Assembly (NCBI GenBank): GCA_028345195.1
Contig: JAOMCX010000002.1
Span: 1 to 64,000 of the forward strand
Direction of reading: 5' to 3'
Length of the DNA: 64,000 bases
DNA from: Candidatus Nitrosopelagicus sp.
GTDB lineage: Archaea > Thermoproteota > Nitrososphaeria > Nitrososphaerales > Nitrosopumilaceae
Shown here: one piece after another, positions 4,953 to 11,569 of the stretch
Layout of the letters: every line of letters begins with the position of its first letter
Position numbering within the stretch: position 1 is the stretch's first letter
Made by a program: the position numbers and the translations under genes
The notes under the pieces: generated by a model
The model's input: the letters and a program-made list of their open reading frames with translations, nothing else
What the model was told of the DNA's origin: nothing
Databases searched by the model: none

Positions 4953-5492
4953 GTGTCAAATCAAATAAAACCATTATTGATGAAACATTATGGTATTTCT
5001 CCTTGGGAAATTAATGTAATTACAAGTATTTTAGATAAGAGATTTAAAACTGAAGATGAAGAAATTGAAAATACATATGAAGATAAATTTGTCAGTCACC
5101 TAGAGATAGCATTTCCATATTCATTCAATGATGAATTTTTCAAATGGTTTGATTTTAAAGAATGGGATAGACTAAAGGGAGTTTTCAAAGAAATGAAACG
5201 TAGAAGAGGTGATGGAAAAGCAATAAAAATTGAATTGAATTTTTCAGGAGATCCAGATATTAATTTTATTCTTCAATCAGATCAAAGTCAATGGTTTAAG
5301 ATGGAAGTTGAAAAAATCGATTTTGTTGTAGAGTTATTACCATATCATCTTGATAAAGATAAAATTCCAAAAAATGTAAAGAGTGTAATTTATAATTTTG
5401 ATCAAGAAGCAGCTAGATGGAAAATAATTACTGTATTTACAGATGTGGGAAAATTTGTGAATTCCGTAAGCGGTTGGAAATTAACTACTTGA
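4953..5492 (+). CDS. Conserved hypothetical protein
   Basis: 179 residues starting with GTG. No recognised domain, signal peptide or membrane helix. It is rich in aromatic and acidic residues (FKWFDFKEWDRLKG, WFKMEVEKIDFVVELL). It lies 32 nt after the tail-anchored protein gene on the same strand and is convergent with the next unknown gene, sharing 8 bp of 3' end. The frame is uninterrupted and compositionally like its neighbours, so it is very likely real. Confidence 0.6.
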   Translation: MSNQIKPLLMKHYGISPWEINVITSILDKRFKTEDEEIENTYEDKFVSHLEIAFPYSFNDEFFKWFDFKEWDRLKGVFKEMKRRRGDGKAIKIELNFSGDPDINFILQSDQSQWFKMEVEKIDFVVELLPYHLDKDKIPKNVKSVIYNFDQEAARWKIITVFTDVGKFVNSVSGWKLTT

Positions 5493-5919
5493 TCTCTTTT
5501 TCAAGAGGTTCAACTAATTCATGTAATTCCTTATATTTTGATTCTATAAAATTAAGTGATTCATCTAACTTTTTGGATTTTCCATATTTGTAACGAACTA
5601 ATTCACGATGGTGCCAAAAATTTTTTCCTTCTTCTACAGAAATAGTCGTAAAATAATCTGTTCCCTTTAGGTTGTCAGGTAATTTCATTTGATATGGAAA
5701 TAGGAATTCTGTAATGAACCATTCATCTCCATCAGGATAATCATTGCCAGTTTCAACATCAAAGAAGATATGAAGTAAATTAGATTGCATTAGACCATCT
5801 GTAGAAATTTCCGGATGTTTAACATTTGATTTTTTAAAATCAAGCTTTGTTAGTTCAGGAATAAAAAATTCATTAATAATTGATTTTCGAAATATCCTGT
5901 TTACATCTGTTATATTCAA
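5485..5919 (-). CDS. Conserved hypothetical protein
   Basis: 144 residues; no recognised family. Predicted soluble, with an acidic central region (DVETGNDYPDGDEW) and a charged C-terminal helix (KYKELHELVEPLEKEIK). It is convergent with the preceding hypothetical gene (8 bp overlap) and lies just downstream of korB on the same strand (gap about 47 nt), so it could be read through from the kor operon. Confidence 0.55.
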   Translation of the reverse strand: MNITDVNRIFRKSIINEFFIPELTKLDFKKSNVKHPEISTDGLMQSNLLHIFFDVETGNDYPDGDEWFITEFLFPYQMKLPDNLKGTDYFTTISVEEGKNFWHHRELVRYKYGKSKKLDESLNFIESKYKELHELVEPLEKEIK

Positions 5920-5966: not shown

Positions 5967-6932
5967 CTATACTTTGTACAAATCAAGAATTTGATTAATC
6001 TTTGTAATAGGAGCGTTGTTTTTTGAGATATTTTGTAATGCTGAAGGATTTTCTATATAATTTGGAATTTTATCAGTTAATCTTCTAGTATATGGCGTGA
6101 TTAATTCATTTTTATAAAATATTCCAGTAGGAATTTTTTCATCCCATTCAAGTGATCTGACAATAGCCTGTGTTTTTTTCTGATTTAATTCAGTTTCATC
6201 ACTATAGTGTACGACAGGATCATAATCAGTATCTTCTAATTTGTAAATACGTGGCATAGCCTTTTTGGTCGTTTCATCAATTCTATCTACACCACTAAAC
6301 CAATCTTTTGTGTTGATATCATTGTATGTTGGGCAAGGTTGTAAAACATCTACAAATGCCAAACCTTTGTGATTAACCGCAGCAATGATTAGATCTTTTA
6401 ATTGACGAACATCATACGAGTATCCTCTAGCTGCAAATGTAAATCCACTAGCAATTGCAAGCCCAATTGGATTTACATTATAATTTGTGTTTGGAGTAGG
6501 TAATGATTTAGTTTTTTCACCCAATTTTAGAGTAGGGGACGCTTGACCTTTAGTTAATCCATATACTGCATTATCAAAAATTATGTATGTCATATCCACA
6601 TTACGTCTACCAGCTGCAACAAAATGACCTGCACCTATTCCAAGACCATCACCATCACCACCAACAGCTATAATTTCCAAATTTGGATTTGATATTTTTG
6701 CACCTTGTGCAAAAGGTAAGACACGTCCATGCAAAGTATGAACTCCAAATACATTAATGAAATGGGATGTTTTTCCAGAACAACCAATACCAGAGAATAT
6801 TGCAGTTTGATGTCGAGGAATTTCCATTTCTGCCAATGCCATCTGAATTGAATTCACAATTCCAAAATCACCACATCCAGGACACCAATCATTATGGACA
6901 TCTGTTTTGTAGTCACCTATCTTAAGCGCCAT
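5967..6932 (-). CDS. korB: 2-oxoacid:ferredoxin oxidoreductase, beta subunit
   Basis: Thiamine-diphosphate subunit of an OFOR, converting a 2-oxoacid plus CoA to acyl-CoA with reduction of ferredoxin (probably 2-oxoglutarate/succinyl-CoA). Visible are CPGCGDFGI at the N-terminus, GIGCSGK, and the ThDP/Mg site [13 protein letters not shown] followed by [16 protein letters not shown]. Cysteines in these motifs and QPCPTYN would bind the proximal 4Fe-4S cluster. 321 residues is normal for the two-subunit archaeal form. Its start overlaps the end of korA by 11 bp. Substrate (2-oxoglutarate versus pyruvate) is inferred from neighbours. Confidence 0.92.
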
Positions 6933-8832
6933 ATGTCAAAACCTCTCTTTTTTGTGCAGTACCATTAACTATTTTTTTTAACGTATCGTATAATTCAGTA
7001 CATGTCATTGGTCTTCCTGTGAATTTTAGAATATAATAATCAGGATCCTTTTCTAAATTTTGCCTAATTAATGAACCTAGTTGACCAGTATAGTTTGCTT
7101 CAATGTCAATAATAGTTTTAGAATTAGAAAATAATTTTTTTAAGAATTCTTTTGGAAATGGTTCTAAAAGCTTTACTTCAACAAATCCAATATTGATACC
7201 ATCATCTTTCAACATTTCTATTGCATCTAGAATTGGACCTTGAGTTGAGCCCCAAGAGACAACACAAAAATCACCTTCAGAGTGTTTTACGATTTGTTCA
7301 GTTTCAGGAATTTTTTCAAGTATGTAATCTAGACGAGATTGTCTTTTATCCATCATTTGAACACGATTTACCGGATCCTCAGATATGTGACCTTGTATAT
7401 CACTTTCATCACCAGTGTTCCAAAATATTCCATTTTCTAAACCTAGTTTTGACCTTGGTGACAATCCATCTTCTGTATGTTCAAATCTTCTATAATTGTC
7501 CGAAGGAATTTCATTCAGTAATTTTCCTCTATCAATATTCACTCTAGTTTCATCAAATCTTTGACAGGTTGTGACAGAACTAGCAATGAATTTATCCATC
7601 ATGTGTATTACAGGAACTTGAAAAACATCTGCATAGTTAAACACCTGAGTTGTATCATAGAAACTATCAGAGACACTACCTGATGCGTAAACAATTCTAG
7701 GGAATTCTCCAACACCAGAATTTATTGCACACATTAAATCATCTTGACCATGACGTGTAGGTAAACCAGTGGATGGGCCACTTCTTTGATAAAAAGTGAT
7801 TACAACTGGAACTTCATTGATTCCTGCCCAACTCAGACATTCAATCATTAATACAAAACCAGGTCCAGAGGTACATGTAGCAGAACGTACACCAGTTAAT
7901 GATGAACCAATTGCCATACCTATTGCAGAAATTTCATCTTCAGTTTGAATAACAAGTGTTGAGCCAGGACGATCCTCATTAATTTCAAGTATTTCATTAG
8001 TTTCAAGGAAATTACTTTCATCAGTTGCAGGTGTAATTGGATAATATGATTGAAATCTGCACCCAGCGATAATTTTTCCAATTGAGGTACCATAATATCC
8101 TTGAACCAGAAGCGTATTTTCTTCAATTTCTTTTTCCTCGAATTTGAGACCAATATTATCAAATTTGGCAGTTGCATAATTGTAAGCAAAATTTGCTGCA
8201 GAGACATTCATTTCAGCTATAGATTTTTTCTTTGAAAATATTGAGTTTACAGATTCAGTTAATTTTTCCGAGGGAATCATTAACAATCCTAATGAAAGAG
8301 AAACTCCCAAAACATTGAACATACGACTCATGTTTTTAATTCGGGGGTTCTCTAATTTTTCAGATAATTCAGCTAATAGACTACGAAAAGAAACGGAATG
8401 TATCGAGGTACCATTTTCAGATGCCAATTCCAATATTCCTTTAACAGTATCTTCTTTGTTTTTAGATTTTAGAAGATTCCCTAAACGTTCTTTAAAATCA
8501 TTATCAAATGTAATAACATCTGAAACTTTTACATTTTCTAAAGTTGAATCATAAATTATAATTCCATTTTCTAAAACATCATCTGCATGACGGAAAATGG
8601 TTTCAGCATCAAATGCAATAAGCATATTTGTCCCTTTTACACTAGAGCGAATTTGTTTTTCAGAAACTCTTACTGCAAAATAGCTATGTTCACCTTTAAT
8701 GTTTGAATAATATTCACGTTTTCCAAATATTTGATAACCCATTTTTGAGAAAACCTGAGAGAAAATATTAGCTGCAGTTTCAACTCCACTTCCTTGAGGT
8801 CCACCAATCATCCATGTAAAATCAGTTATCAT
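6922..8832 (-). CDS. korA: 2-oxoacid:ferredoxin oxidoreductase, fused gamma-alpha subunit
   Basis: An N-terminal gamma domain (about residues 1-190, beginning [22 protein letters not shown]) binds CoA. The alpha domain follows, with [21 protein letters not shown] and the OFOR signature [19 protein letters not shown] chose the ATG at 8832 rather than the longer 8889 start: it lies 1 nt after the stop of a newly noticed small ORF, and the protein then begins exactly at the conserved gamma-domain strand. No ferredoxin-like delta subunit is fused or adjacent, apart from the cysteine-rich mini-gene. Confidence 0.92.
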
Positions 8833-8833
8833 T

Positions 8834-8968
8834 TCATGCCCCCGTTGCGGCATCAAATAATGCACATTCACATTTGTCACGTTCTCCACAATAGGGGCAA
8901 ACGCAGATACATTGTTCTATTGGTTTTTCACATTCAGAACAATTTAGTAAATCATCAGAAGAAGACAA
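8834..8968 (-). CDS. 44-residue cysteine-rich protein coupled to korA
   Basis: Small ORF from TTG (8968) to TGA (8836-8834), ending 1 nt before the korA ATG. It encodes eight cysteines arranged CxxC-x6-CxCxCxxC-x5-CxC (motifs CSEC, CICVCPYCG, CEC). This looks like a zinc-ribbon-like or small metal-binding protein; a role as electron carrier or assembly factor for the oxidoreductase is inference. A TATA-like TTTATAAT at about 8989-8996 lies about 25 nt before the TTG, so the mRNA may be leaderless. It appears to be the first gene of the kor operon. Confidence 0.7.
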   Translation of the reverse strand: MSSSDDLLNCSECEKPIEQCICVCPYCGERDKCECALFDAATGA

Positions 8969-8984
8969 TACTCCTATTATGATT

Positions 8985-8997
8985 AAATATTATAAAT
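8985..8997. promoter_or_regulatory. Shared bidirectional TATA region for the kor operon and the 2-hydroxyacid dehydrogenase
   Basis: An AT-rich near-symmetric element (TATTATAAAT on plus, ATTTATAATA on minus) sits about 25-26 nt from the ATG at 9016 on one side and from the TTG at 8968 on the other. A single TATA region could therefore serve both divergent, probably leaderless, transcripts. Confidence 0.5.
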
Positions 8998-9015
8998 GGT
9001 TTGACCAAACATTCA

Positions 9016-9984
9016 ATGAAAAAACGTTTCAATGTATTAGTTACAAGACGACTACATAGATCTGCACTAGATGAATTAGGAAAGAAATGCAATGTCTCAT
9101 TACATACAGGTAAAATTCCAATTCCAAAAAAAAAATTAATTAATGAAATTAAAGATGTTGATGGAGTGATTTGTCATCCATATGATACGATAGATAAAGA
9201 AGTTATTAGTAATGCAAAAAATCTTAAAGCGATTAGTACTTTCAGTGTAGGTTTTGATCATATTGACATAAATTTTGCTAAATCCAAAAAAATTAAAATT
9301 GGCTATACGCCTGAGGTTTTGACAAATGCTACAGCTGAATTGACAATTGGATTAATTTTAGATGTTTTAAGACGAATTTCTGAAGGAGATAGAATAATCC
9401 GTAATAAAAAGTGGAATCAAGTCTTTGGCGCATATGATTATACAGGTACAGAAGTTGCAGGAAAAACTATCGGAATTATAGGAATGGGGAGAATTGGAAA
9501 AGAAGTAGCAAAAAAAGCAAATGGGCTAGGCATGAATGTGATTTATCATAATAGAAGACCAGTATCAAAGAGTACAGAGAAGATTTTGAAAACAAAATAT
9601 GTTTCAGAAAATACATTGTATAAAAAAAGTGATGTAATTTCATTACATCTTCCATACAATAAGGATACACACCATTTAATGGATTCAAAAAAATTTAAAA
9701 AGATGAAAGAAACTTCTTTTTTGATAAATACATCTAGAGGAAAAATTGTAAATGAAAAACAACTAGCAACAGCTTTGAAGAAAAAACAGATTCAAGGTGC
9801 AGGAATGGATGTTTATGAGTCAGAGCCTATTAAAAAAGATAATTCATTACTAAAACTAGAAAATGTTGTTTTAGCACCACATGTAGGAAGCTCAACGAAA
9901 GAAACAAGACAAAAAATGTCAGACATTACAGTAAGAAATTTAGTTTTGGGATTAGAGGGGAAAAAATTACTTTATTCGGTTTAA
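9016..9984 (+). CDS. D-isomer-specific 2-hydroxyacid dehydrogenase (glyoxylate/hydroxypyruvate reductase-like)
   Basis: NAD(P)-dependent reductase of 2-oxoacids. Rossmann motif GMGRIGKEVAKK is visible mid-protein, followed by the signature LINTSRGKIVNEKQL and the catalytic-His region APHVGSST. I start it at ATG 9016 (KKRFNVLVTRRL...) rather than TTG 9001, because 9016 is 26 nt from the TATA box. About 322 residues, no ACT domain, so a short GyaR-like enzyme rather than full serine-pathway SerA. Divergent from kor; 4 bp shared with the convergent next gene. Confidence 0.88.
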   Translation: MKKRFNVLVTRRLHRSALDELGKKCNVSLHTGKIPIPKKKLINEIKDVDGVICHPYDTIDKEVISNAKNLKAISTFSVGFDHIDINFAKSKKIKIGYTPEVLTNATAELTIGLILDVLRRISEGDRIIRNKKWNQVFGAYDYTGTEVAGKTIGIIGMGRIGKEVAKKANGLGMNVIYHNRRPVSKSTEKILKTKYVSENTLYKKSDVISLHLPYNKDTHHLMDSKKFKKMKETSFLINTSRGKIVNEKQLATALKKKQIQGAGMDVYESEPIKKDNSLLKLENVVLAPHVGSSTKETRQKMSDITVRNLVLGLEGKKLLYSV

Positions 9985-10270: not shown

Positions 10271-11569
10271 TTAAATTCGTTCTATTATTGAATTAAAGTT
10301 CCATAATGAATTTTTTTGAGAATTTGGAGATTTCAAAATGCCTTTATCCTGTAATTTTTTAACAACTAAAGCAGAATATGCAGGAGCCCCAGTTGCACCA
10401 GGTGAATTATAGTTCACAATATGAAATGAATTATGTCCTTCACGTTCCATAACATCGGAAATAAAAGTTCCATCTGGAGATATAACTGGAGTGCGTATTC
10501 CTGCAGTTCCTTTTTTTATGAAATACTCTGGTTTTAGAGATGGAATAAAATCCATAACACGTTGAACCATGGCATCTTTTGATATTGAGCTCCTAAACTC
10601 CTTTGTAACTAAAGATATGAAATCAGGATTAAGAAATAATTTTTTTGCACCACCTGTTAAAATTTCGCCTAATTTTGATATAGTCGATGGAATATCAGTT
10701 ACAAAACCATCATAGGTTTCAGGCGTAGGTACAGGCACAGCATTTGGGCCAATCTCAGTGGTTCCATTAGCACGTTTAATCCAATGAGGATCAAGAAAAG
10801 GAAATTCAGGATGTCTTGCAACTGAGTAAATGTTTGTTTTTACAATATCAGCATAACTGCTATCAGCTATCCAGTATTCACCTCTAAAATGTAGATCAGA
10901 GTGTGATTGAAGTAAATCAAATTCTTTTGCGATATCAAGTGAGTTACCACCAGAGCAATTAATTAAATAATTACATTCAATCGAAGTGTTATCTGTAAAA
11001 TTTATTTGGATTATATCATTATTTATGAGAAATGATTTAACATTTTTCTGAAAAAGGAATTCAGTTGAATTTTGGATAGATATTTTCTGTATTTCTTGAG
11101 TAAGTTTAGAATAATCAGTAGAGACATCACTTTTACATAATAATCCAGAATGACATTCAATATTTTTTTCTTTTTGTTTCAATTCATTTGAATCAAGTAA
11201 TGACAAATTATTTTCAGAAACACCATTTTGTATTCCCCATTTATGATATTTTTCCAAAGTTTTATGTTGTGTTTCATCTAAAGCAACTTCTATAGTTCCA
11301 ATCTCATTCCACGGTGACATTGTATTTGTTGCTAGTGTTTTCCATAAATCATGTGATACATGTGCAGATTTTGCAAAAATTTTTTTTGTTTCAGGATTTA
11401 AGTAAAATGGAGTATGAACAACTCCAGTATTTCTTCCACTCGTATGTTTAGCAACATTGGACTCCTTTTCAATAACACAAACACTGGAATCATAAAGATT
11501 TGATATCCAATATGAAATTGTAGTACCTAAAATTCCTCCACCGATAATTGCAATATCAAATTTTTTCAA
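10271..11569 (-). CDS. lhgO: L-2-hydroxyglutarate oxidase-like FAD-dependent oxidoreductase
   Basis: DAO-superfamily flavoprotein. The N-terminus carries the dinucleotide-binding motif IIGGGILGTTISYW, and SGRNTGVVHTPFYLNP matches the LhgO/L2HGDH family. The C-terminal part has GTAGIRTPVISPDGTFISD and NSPGATGAPAYSALVV, typical of the FAD-closing region. Such enzymes oxidise L-2-hydroxyglutarate to 2-oxoglutarate. With kor and a 2-hydroxyacid dehydrogenase next door this fits a 2-oxoglutarate neighbourhood. 432 residues is slightly longer than bacterial LhgO. Substrate is not proven by sequence. Confidence 0.82.
   Translation of the reverse strand: MKKFDIAIIGGGILGTTISYWISNLYDSSVCVIEKESNVAKHTSGRNTGVVHTPFYLNPETKKIFAKSAHVSHDLWKTLATNTMSPWNEIGTIEVALDETQHKTLEKYHKWGIQNGVSENNLSLLDSNELKQKEKNIECHSGLLCKSDVSTDYSKLTQEIQKISIQNSTEFLFQKNVKSFLINNDIIQINFTDNTSIECNYLINCSGGNSLDIAKEFDLLQSHSDLHFRGEYWIADSSYADIVKTNIYSVARHPEFPFLDPHWIKRANGTTEIGPNAVPVPTPETYDGFVTDIPSTISKLGEILTGGAKKLFLNPDFISLVTKEFRSSISKDAMVQRVMDFIPSLKPEYFIKKGTAGIRTPVISPDGTFISDVMEREGHNSFHIVNYNSPGATGAPAYSALVVKKLQDKGILKSPNSQKNSLWNFNSIIERI

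Follow-up and report, generated by a model that had tools for sequence, protein, structure and literature searches.

A 44-residue protein with eight cysteines, here called Z, is encoded directly upstream of korA in the 64,000-nucleotide stretch of Candidatus Nitrosopelagicus DNA analysed here (the window), and its ORF is real and coding, far above chance. It is highly probable that Z partners KorAB, the two-subunit 2-oxoacid:ferredoxin oxidoreductase (OFOR), in some form. Our preferred reading, which we put forward tentatively, is that Z is a zinc-ribbon-like partner that would help to insert, repair or shield the [4Fe-4S] cluster of KorB; we infer metal binding, contact with KorAB and action on an Fe-S cluster from sequence comparisons. 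New here are a natural fusion of Z with a NifU domain, an unrelated cysteine-rich protein (Y) that occupies the same slot ahead of korA, and Z paralogues that lie beside Lrp/AsnC proteins. OFOR is central to the carbon metabolism of archaea, and the ammonia oxidisers among them operate oxygen-sensitive Fe-S enzymes such as OFOR in oxic water.

Conservation of a short cysteine-rich ORF

The ORF (Table 1) runs on the minus strand from a TTG start codon (8968-8966) to a TGA stop codon (8836-8834), and the plus strand across 8834-8968 is interrupted by stops. Its product (MSSSDDLLNCSECEKPIEQCICVCPYCGERDKCECALFDAATGA) has exactly the CxxC-x6-CxCxCxxC-x5-CxC arrangement of eight cysteines in 44 residues that the first-pass annotation had read from this stretch, and the frame does end, as also stated there, one base before korA, with a single A between the TGA and the korA ATG at 8832. 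In 17 Nitrosopelagicus sequences, all eight cysteines and the TTG start are kept and no Cys codon is lost, and the loss of cysteines, the stop or the frameshift that had been named as evidence against the ORF was not found in relatives. The codon substitution pattern agrees with this, since the pooled pN/pS was 0.069 (pS 0.42, pN 0.029; 136 pairs from the 17 sequences). The low pN/pS, the intact Cys codons and the homologues found across the order, the class and the phylum identify Z as a real gene.

Table 1. Features around korA in the window (forward-strand positions) and loci of the Y family
Feature	Position	Strand	Remarks
Z, 44-aa protein with 8 Cys	8834..8968	-	C-terminal tail DAATGA
TATA-like box TTTATAATA	8988..8996	-	within conserved block TGGTCAAACCATTTATAATATTTAAT
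korA, 2-oxoacid:ferredoxin oxidoreductase alpha (fused gamma-alpha, 636 aa)	6922..8832	-	ATG 8832
korB, beta subunit (TPP domain and [4Fe-4S] cluster)	5967..6932	-	overlaps korA end
144-aa protein, downstream of korB	5485..5919	-	probable operon member
D-2-hydroxyacid dehydrogenase, divergent	9016..9984	+	PF02826 E=2.1e-63, PF00389; ATG 9016
Y family loci	L266, L267, L271-L273, L148, L150, L277-L306

Homologues of Z were detected in 41 of 61 relatives at E<=0.01, and most of those in relatives are about 40-60 aa long. A Z profile matched 161 of 200 genomes of the class, a few of them with weak scores only, and gave strong matches elsewhere in the phylum, in families f24, f26 and f45. An alignment of 25 diverse members showed C10, C13, C20, C22, C24, C27, G28, C35, T42 and G43 to be invariant and C33 and P25 to be nearly so, C33 being missing in one distant homologue. 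We define the KorA-linked Z family here by the motif C-x2-C-x6-C-x-C-x-C-P-x-C-G-x4-C-x-C, a C-terminal TG and a position directly upstream of korA, all of which the window protein shows. The tail itself reads DAATGA in the window and DAATGG in most relatives.

Searches of Pfam, NCBIfam and PDB with the single protein gave no match, a PDB profile search gave no relative, and Z stands outside every curated family searched (Pfam, NCBIfam). There was no Fer4 match and the CxxCxxCxxxCP motifs are absent, which sets Z apart from OFOR delta subunits and 2[4Fe-4S] ferredoxins, and the window protein is likewise no NifU/Nfu member, as it has no NifU domain (PF01106). PF13248 (Zn_ribbon_3) matched 4 of the 25 homologues weakly (best E 9e-4) and the window protein not at all. 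The open-access literature held no description of Z or of an OFOR accessory protein. Annotations easily miss a gene like Z, which has few codons, in many cases a TTG start and no matching model in Pfam or NCBIfam.

Among known proteins, the archaeal C(P)XCG microproteins (HVO_2753, HVO_0758, Brz) come nearest to Z. Like Haloferax HVO_2753 and HVO_0758, archaeal proteins with Cys4 zinc-ribbon-type sites (PMC10716476, PMC11241148), Z falls below 70 residues and carries CxxC(G) and CPxCG knuckles; CPYCG is present, and the first knuckle reads CSECE in the window and CxxCG in many homologues. Unlike them, it has eight cysteines, among which CxCxC and CxC are interleaved, shows an invariant (A)TG(G) tail at its C-terminus and is strictly linked to korA. 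Brz of Halobacterium salinarum, a small zinc-finger protein, likewise has its gene immediately ahead of the gene that it targets and in the same orientation (PMC2253796); Brz, however, is a regulator of bop transcription, and Z is likened to it by description and gene position. The CxxCG ... CPxCG pair further recalls rubredoxin/rubrerythrin-type knuckles, but Z has eight Cys instead of the four of the single rubredoxin Cys4 site, a 10-residue knuckle spacing and no match to the Pfam rubredoxin profile, which places it outside the rubredoxins.

Linkage to korA and organisation of the operon

We found korA immediately downstream of Z in 147 of 164 distinct contexts; the rest comprise paralogues and other loci, a single contig end and a single case in which the two genes are separated. 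A scripted scan of named genomes, covering the best 80 of 280 matches, placed korA after Z at 78 of these 80 loci, and the two exceptions are L219, where the contig ends, and L193, where korA is partly N and both korA and korB are present. The gap between Z and korA is usually 40-60 nt. Spacings of 1-2 nt are almost confined to Nitrosopelagicus, and the translational coupling proposed in the first-pass annotation is therefore not conserved: it fits the one-base gap of this genus but not the gaps of about 40-60 nt in most relatives. Co-transcription of Z and korA is general, and translational coupling is local to Nitrosopelagicus. Greater distances also occur, with an intact Z lying ~6 kb from korA on the same strand in genome G168 and a Z about 400 nt from korA in genome G026. 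The explanation of the TGG tail as merely a Shine-Dalgarno sequence for korA was rejected, as the tail is kept at gaps of ~50 nt and in paralogues away from korA.

The TATA-like box TTTATAATA lies 28 nt ahead of the Z TTG, and both the box and the block TGGTCAAACCATTTATAATATTTAAT around it are unchanged in 17 of 17 Nitrosopelagicus sequences, among which an AGGAG upstream of the TTG is not conserved. Because the box is only 28 nt from the start codon, the Z mRNA is probably nearly leaderless. The box had been described as Z's own; it is indeed present and invariant in the genus, but it is perhaps not Z's alone, because the short intergenic region (a 47-bp divergent promoter region, 8969-9015, whose TATA box is readable both ways) also serves the divergent 2-hydroxyacid dehydrogenase gene, which keeps its divergent orientation relative to Z in other genera. 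A palindrome-like TGGTCAAACCA overlaps the Z promoter and is conserved across Nitrosopelagicus. Downstream, the korA product matched NCBIfam NF041170 (E=7e-256) and Pfam POR, POR_N and PFOR_II, and the korB product matched NCBIfam NF041171 (E=2e-130). The 144-aa protein encoded after korB matched no family above the Pfam or NCBIfam cut-off; it accompanies korAB at L038, L044, L046-L049 and L125, and is kept throughout the Nitrosopumilaceae loci examined.

Co-inheritance of Z and KorA

On a quick, midpoint-rooted FastTree phylogeny of 85 KorA sequences, the presence of Z required 7 changes, compared with a mean of 26.8 for shuffled labels. The KorA proteins of three genomes from different families, G226 (f10), G044 (f9) and G083 (f20), form a supported group in which all have Z; KorA belongs to a different lineage in other f10 genomes, which lack Z, and G083 itself has two korA genes, one with Z and one without. 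Where KorA and taxonomy conflict, Z tracks KorA, and transferred korA cassettes are apparently included in this co-inheritance.

A korA without Z was found in the Sulfolobales-like families f40 and f43, in family f10 and in two Nitrosopumilaceae genomes of ~0.8 Mb (G034 and G181), and the Sulfolobales-like genomes showed no small Cys-rich partner just upstream of their Z-less korA. KorB cysteines 17, 20, 51 and 200 are kept almost everywhere, and loss of a cluster cysteine was looked for in the Z-less lineages and not seen. Since KorAB exists without Z, with the KorB cysteines intact where checked, Z is not universally required and not essential for the enzyme class. In the two ~0.8-Mb genomes (L132 of G034 and L131 of G181) Z is lost, and a frame resembling the FAD-dependent oxidase of the window (10271-11569) stands in its place. 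Among 114 Z-linked KorB sequences, five have the third cluster cysteine replaced (by Asn in four, by Gln in one), which suggests an altered Fe-S site; the KorB at L105 (G401) reads GIGNAGKTPHF at this position.

An unrelated protein in the same slot and a NifU fusion

Upstream of Z-less korA genes in other Thermoproteota we identified Y, a Cys-rich protein of ~100 aa with the motif C-x2-C-x14-C-x13-C ... C-x2-C and a conserved C-terminal tail EE..(S/T)AD. The Y profile matched 43 of 250 genomes of the phylum, none of which has a strong Z match, and in 29 of 32 contexts Y stands immediately ahead of korA; in the other three, korA is nearby and Y is divergent by coordinates. Homology between Z and Y was rejected (hhalign probability 3.5%). 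No credible NCBIfam match was obtained for the seven Y members tested, nor a credible Pfam match for the members tested. The occupation of the same position by two unrelated small Cys-rich proteins suggests that KorAB operons have a need in common.

In the two genomes G047 and G060, which belong to a single genus within the same order, Z forms the C-terminal part of a 118-aa protein encoded directly before korA. Residues about 8-70 of this protein match the NifU domain PF01106 above the gathering cut-off (E 2.7e-8 and 6.4e-7), and the NifU part keeps its CxxC (ACSDCK/ACSECK). Searches with PF01106 gave no second copy in either genome and none in the G000 assembly or in 12 of 13 other genomes checked, and were positive in 5 of 14 control genomes. 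Domain fusions of this sort are a standard hint of joint function, and this one points at Fe-S cluster delivery, for which KorB would be the obvious client.

A possible role at the KorB cluster

In the mechanism that we propose, Z would be the first gene of a korZ-korA-korB operon, and the eight cysteines of its product would fold around one or two metal ions. C10/C13 and C24/C27 may form rubredoxin-like knuckles, and C20/C22 with C33/C35 a possible second metal site, the pairing being a guess from spacing because the AlphaFold2 model built from 36 aligned sequences was too poor to use (pLDDT 57.8, pTM 0.28). The weak PF13248 signal in 4 of 25 members would favour zinc as the metal. Folded Z may then dock onto nascent or mature KorAB and help to insert, repair or shield its single, surface-near [4Fe-4S] cluster, and in one genus it would carry its own NifU-type cluster-carrier domain. 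The host operon resembles those of S. tokodaii StOFOR1/2 in its KorA/KorB families (NF041170/NF041171) and four KorB cluster cysteines; unlike the Z systems, StOFOR has no small Cys-rich partner described in the consulted parts of PMC5020499. According to this source, the sole [4Fe-4S] cluster of S. tokodaii OFOR lies close to the surface of a pocket that is the supposed ferredoxin-binding site, and this pocket is open beside the cluster at the place that a ferredoxin domain takes in other OFORs. In DaPFOR, an extra domain shields the cluster.

The first-pass annotation had suggested a small metal protein that might serve as electron acceptor, zinc ribbon or assembly factor. A real small protein tied to KorAB is borne out by the Cys conservation and the korA linkage, its metal binding being predicted, and the assembly-factor option gains independent support from the natural NifU fusion at the same locus. 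For the zinc-ribbon option, the CxxC(G)...CPYCG knuckles and the weak Zn_ribbon_3 match in 4 of 25 homologues are suggestive. The electron-acceptor option, in which Z would be a rubredoxin-like Fe or Fe-S carrier taking electrons from KorB in place of a delta subunit, is disfavoured. Eight cysteines, rubredoxin-like CxxC(G)/CPxCG knuckles and the operon position would suit such a carrier; however, a missing delta subunit is the norm for archaeal two-subunit OFORs, which pass electrons to free ferredoxin (PMC5020499). The genome moreover holds dicluster-ferredoxin frames of 101 and 108 aa elsewhere, many korAB pairs lack Z, closely related enzymes among them, and neither a ferredoxin or rubredoxin family match nor a PDB relative was found, so that we regard this role as quite improbable.

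The operon position and the co-inheritance would fit equally well a structural or stabilising third subunit, a zinc-bound clamp in mature KorAB that handles neither Fe nor S and lies, for example, over the pocket beside the exposed cluster, conferring O2 tolerance or tuning ferredoxin docking. The pocket beside the sole StOFOR cluster and the shielding domain of DaPFOR (PMC5020499) are in line with such a clamp, as is the unrelated Y in the same slot elsewhere. We nevertheless consider a third subunit unlikely, since the NifU fusion indicates cluster delivery, the S. tokodaii KorAB is complete as alpha-beta, and Z paralogues occur away from korA. A Brz-like regulatory microprotein, sensing metal, redox state or a metabolite and controlling korAB expression (in the case of the paralogues, an Lrp/AsnC partner), could draw on the precedent of Brz, whose gene directly precedes bop with the same orientation and which is required for bop mRNA (PMC2253796), on the AsnC ligand-binding neighbours of all eight Z2 loci examined (see below) and on the palindrome-like sequence over the promoter. 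But the Z gene travels with korA across lineages whose promoters differ, a NifU fusion would be odd for a regulator, and Z, as judged from its sequence, is acidic and without a basic surface; regulation by Z is thus distinctly unlikely in our view. Hardly credible is a leader peptide or upstream ORF that would regulate korA through Cys supply or translational coupling while the peptide itself has no job. The one-base spacing in Nitrosopelagicus would suit it, but it is largely refuted by the distance data, with a gap of ~50 nt elsewhere, the Z of G026 and the Z that persists intact in G168 at a distance of 6 kb. The paralogues, the domain fusion and conservation at the level of side chains throughout the phylum speak against it as well.

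The preferred reading, in which Z acts on the KorB cluster, may be widened to the possible but doubtful proposal that archaeal two-subunit OFORs need a dedicated, clade-specific Cys-rich metallo-microprotein, Z or Y, for maturation or protection of the [4Fe-4S] cluster. If true, this would be an Fe-S chaperone system specific to its client, invented twice independently in one slot and fused once, naturally, to a NifU carrier. Such a microprotein would be needed to produce active OFOR and would help to explain how this oxygen-sensitive enzyme functions in oxic water.

Z copies away from korA

Several Nitrosopumilaceae carry extra Z copies away from korA, namely Z2 (...LPHCHCKCPYCGERDKCECALFDAATGG) and Z3 (...EDFAEYTKC...). 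Stand-alone Lrp/AsnC ligand-binding (RAM) proteins (PF01037) are encoded near Z2 in 8 of 8 loci examined (L115-L121, L124); PF01037 neighbours are lacking at most Z3 loci taken alone and at korA-type control loci, and Z3 is sometimes adjacent. In family f45, Z adjoins a peptidyl-tRNA hydrolase gene (PTH2). The Z fold thus serves as a module alongside several partners, and our confidence in a purely KorAB-specific chemistry is lower for that reason. A complete Z-like ORF also ends a 5.7-kb IMG/VR 'viral' contig, where it stands beside phage-like genes (L314:2956-3147); a chimera, the edge of a provirus and a viral copy are all conceivable.
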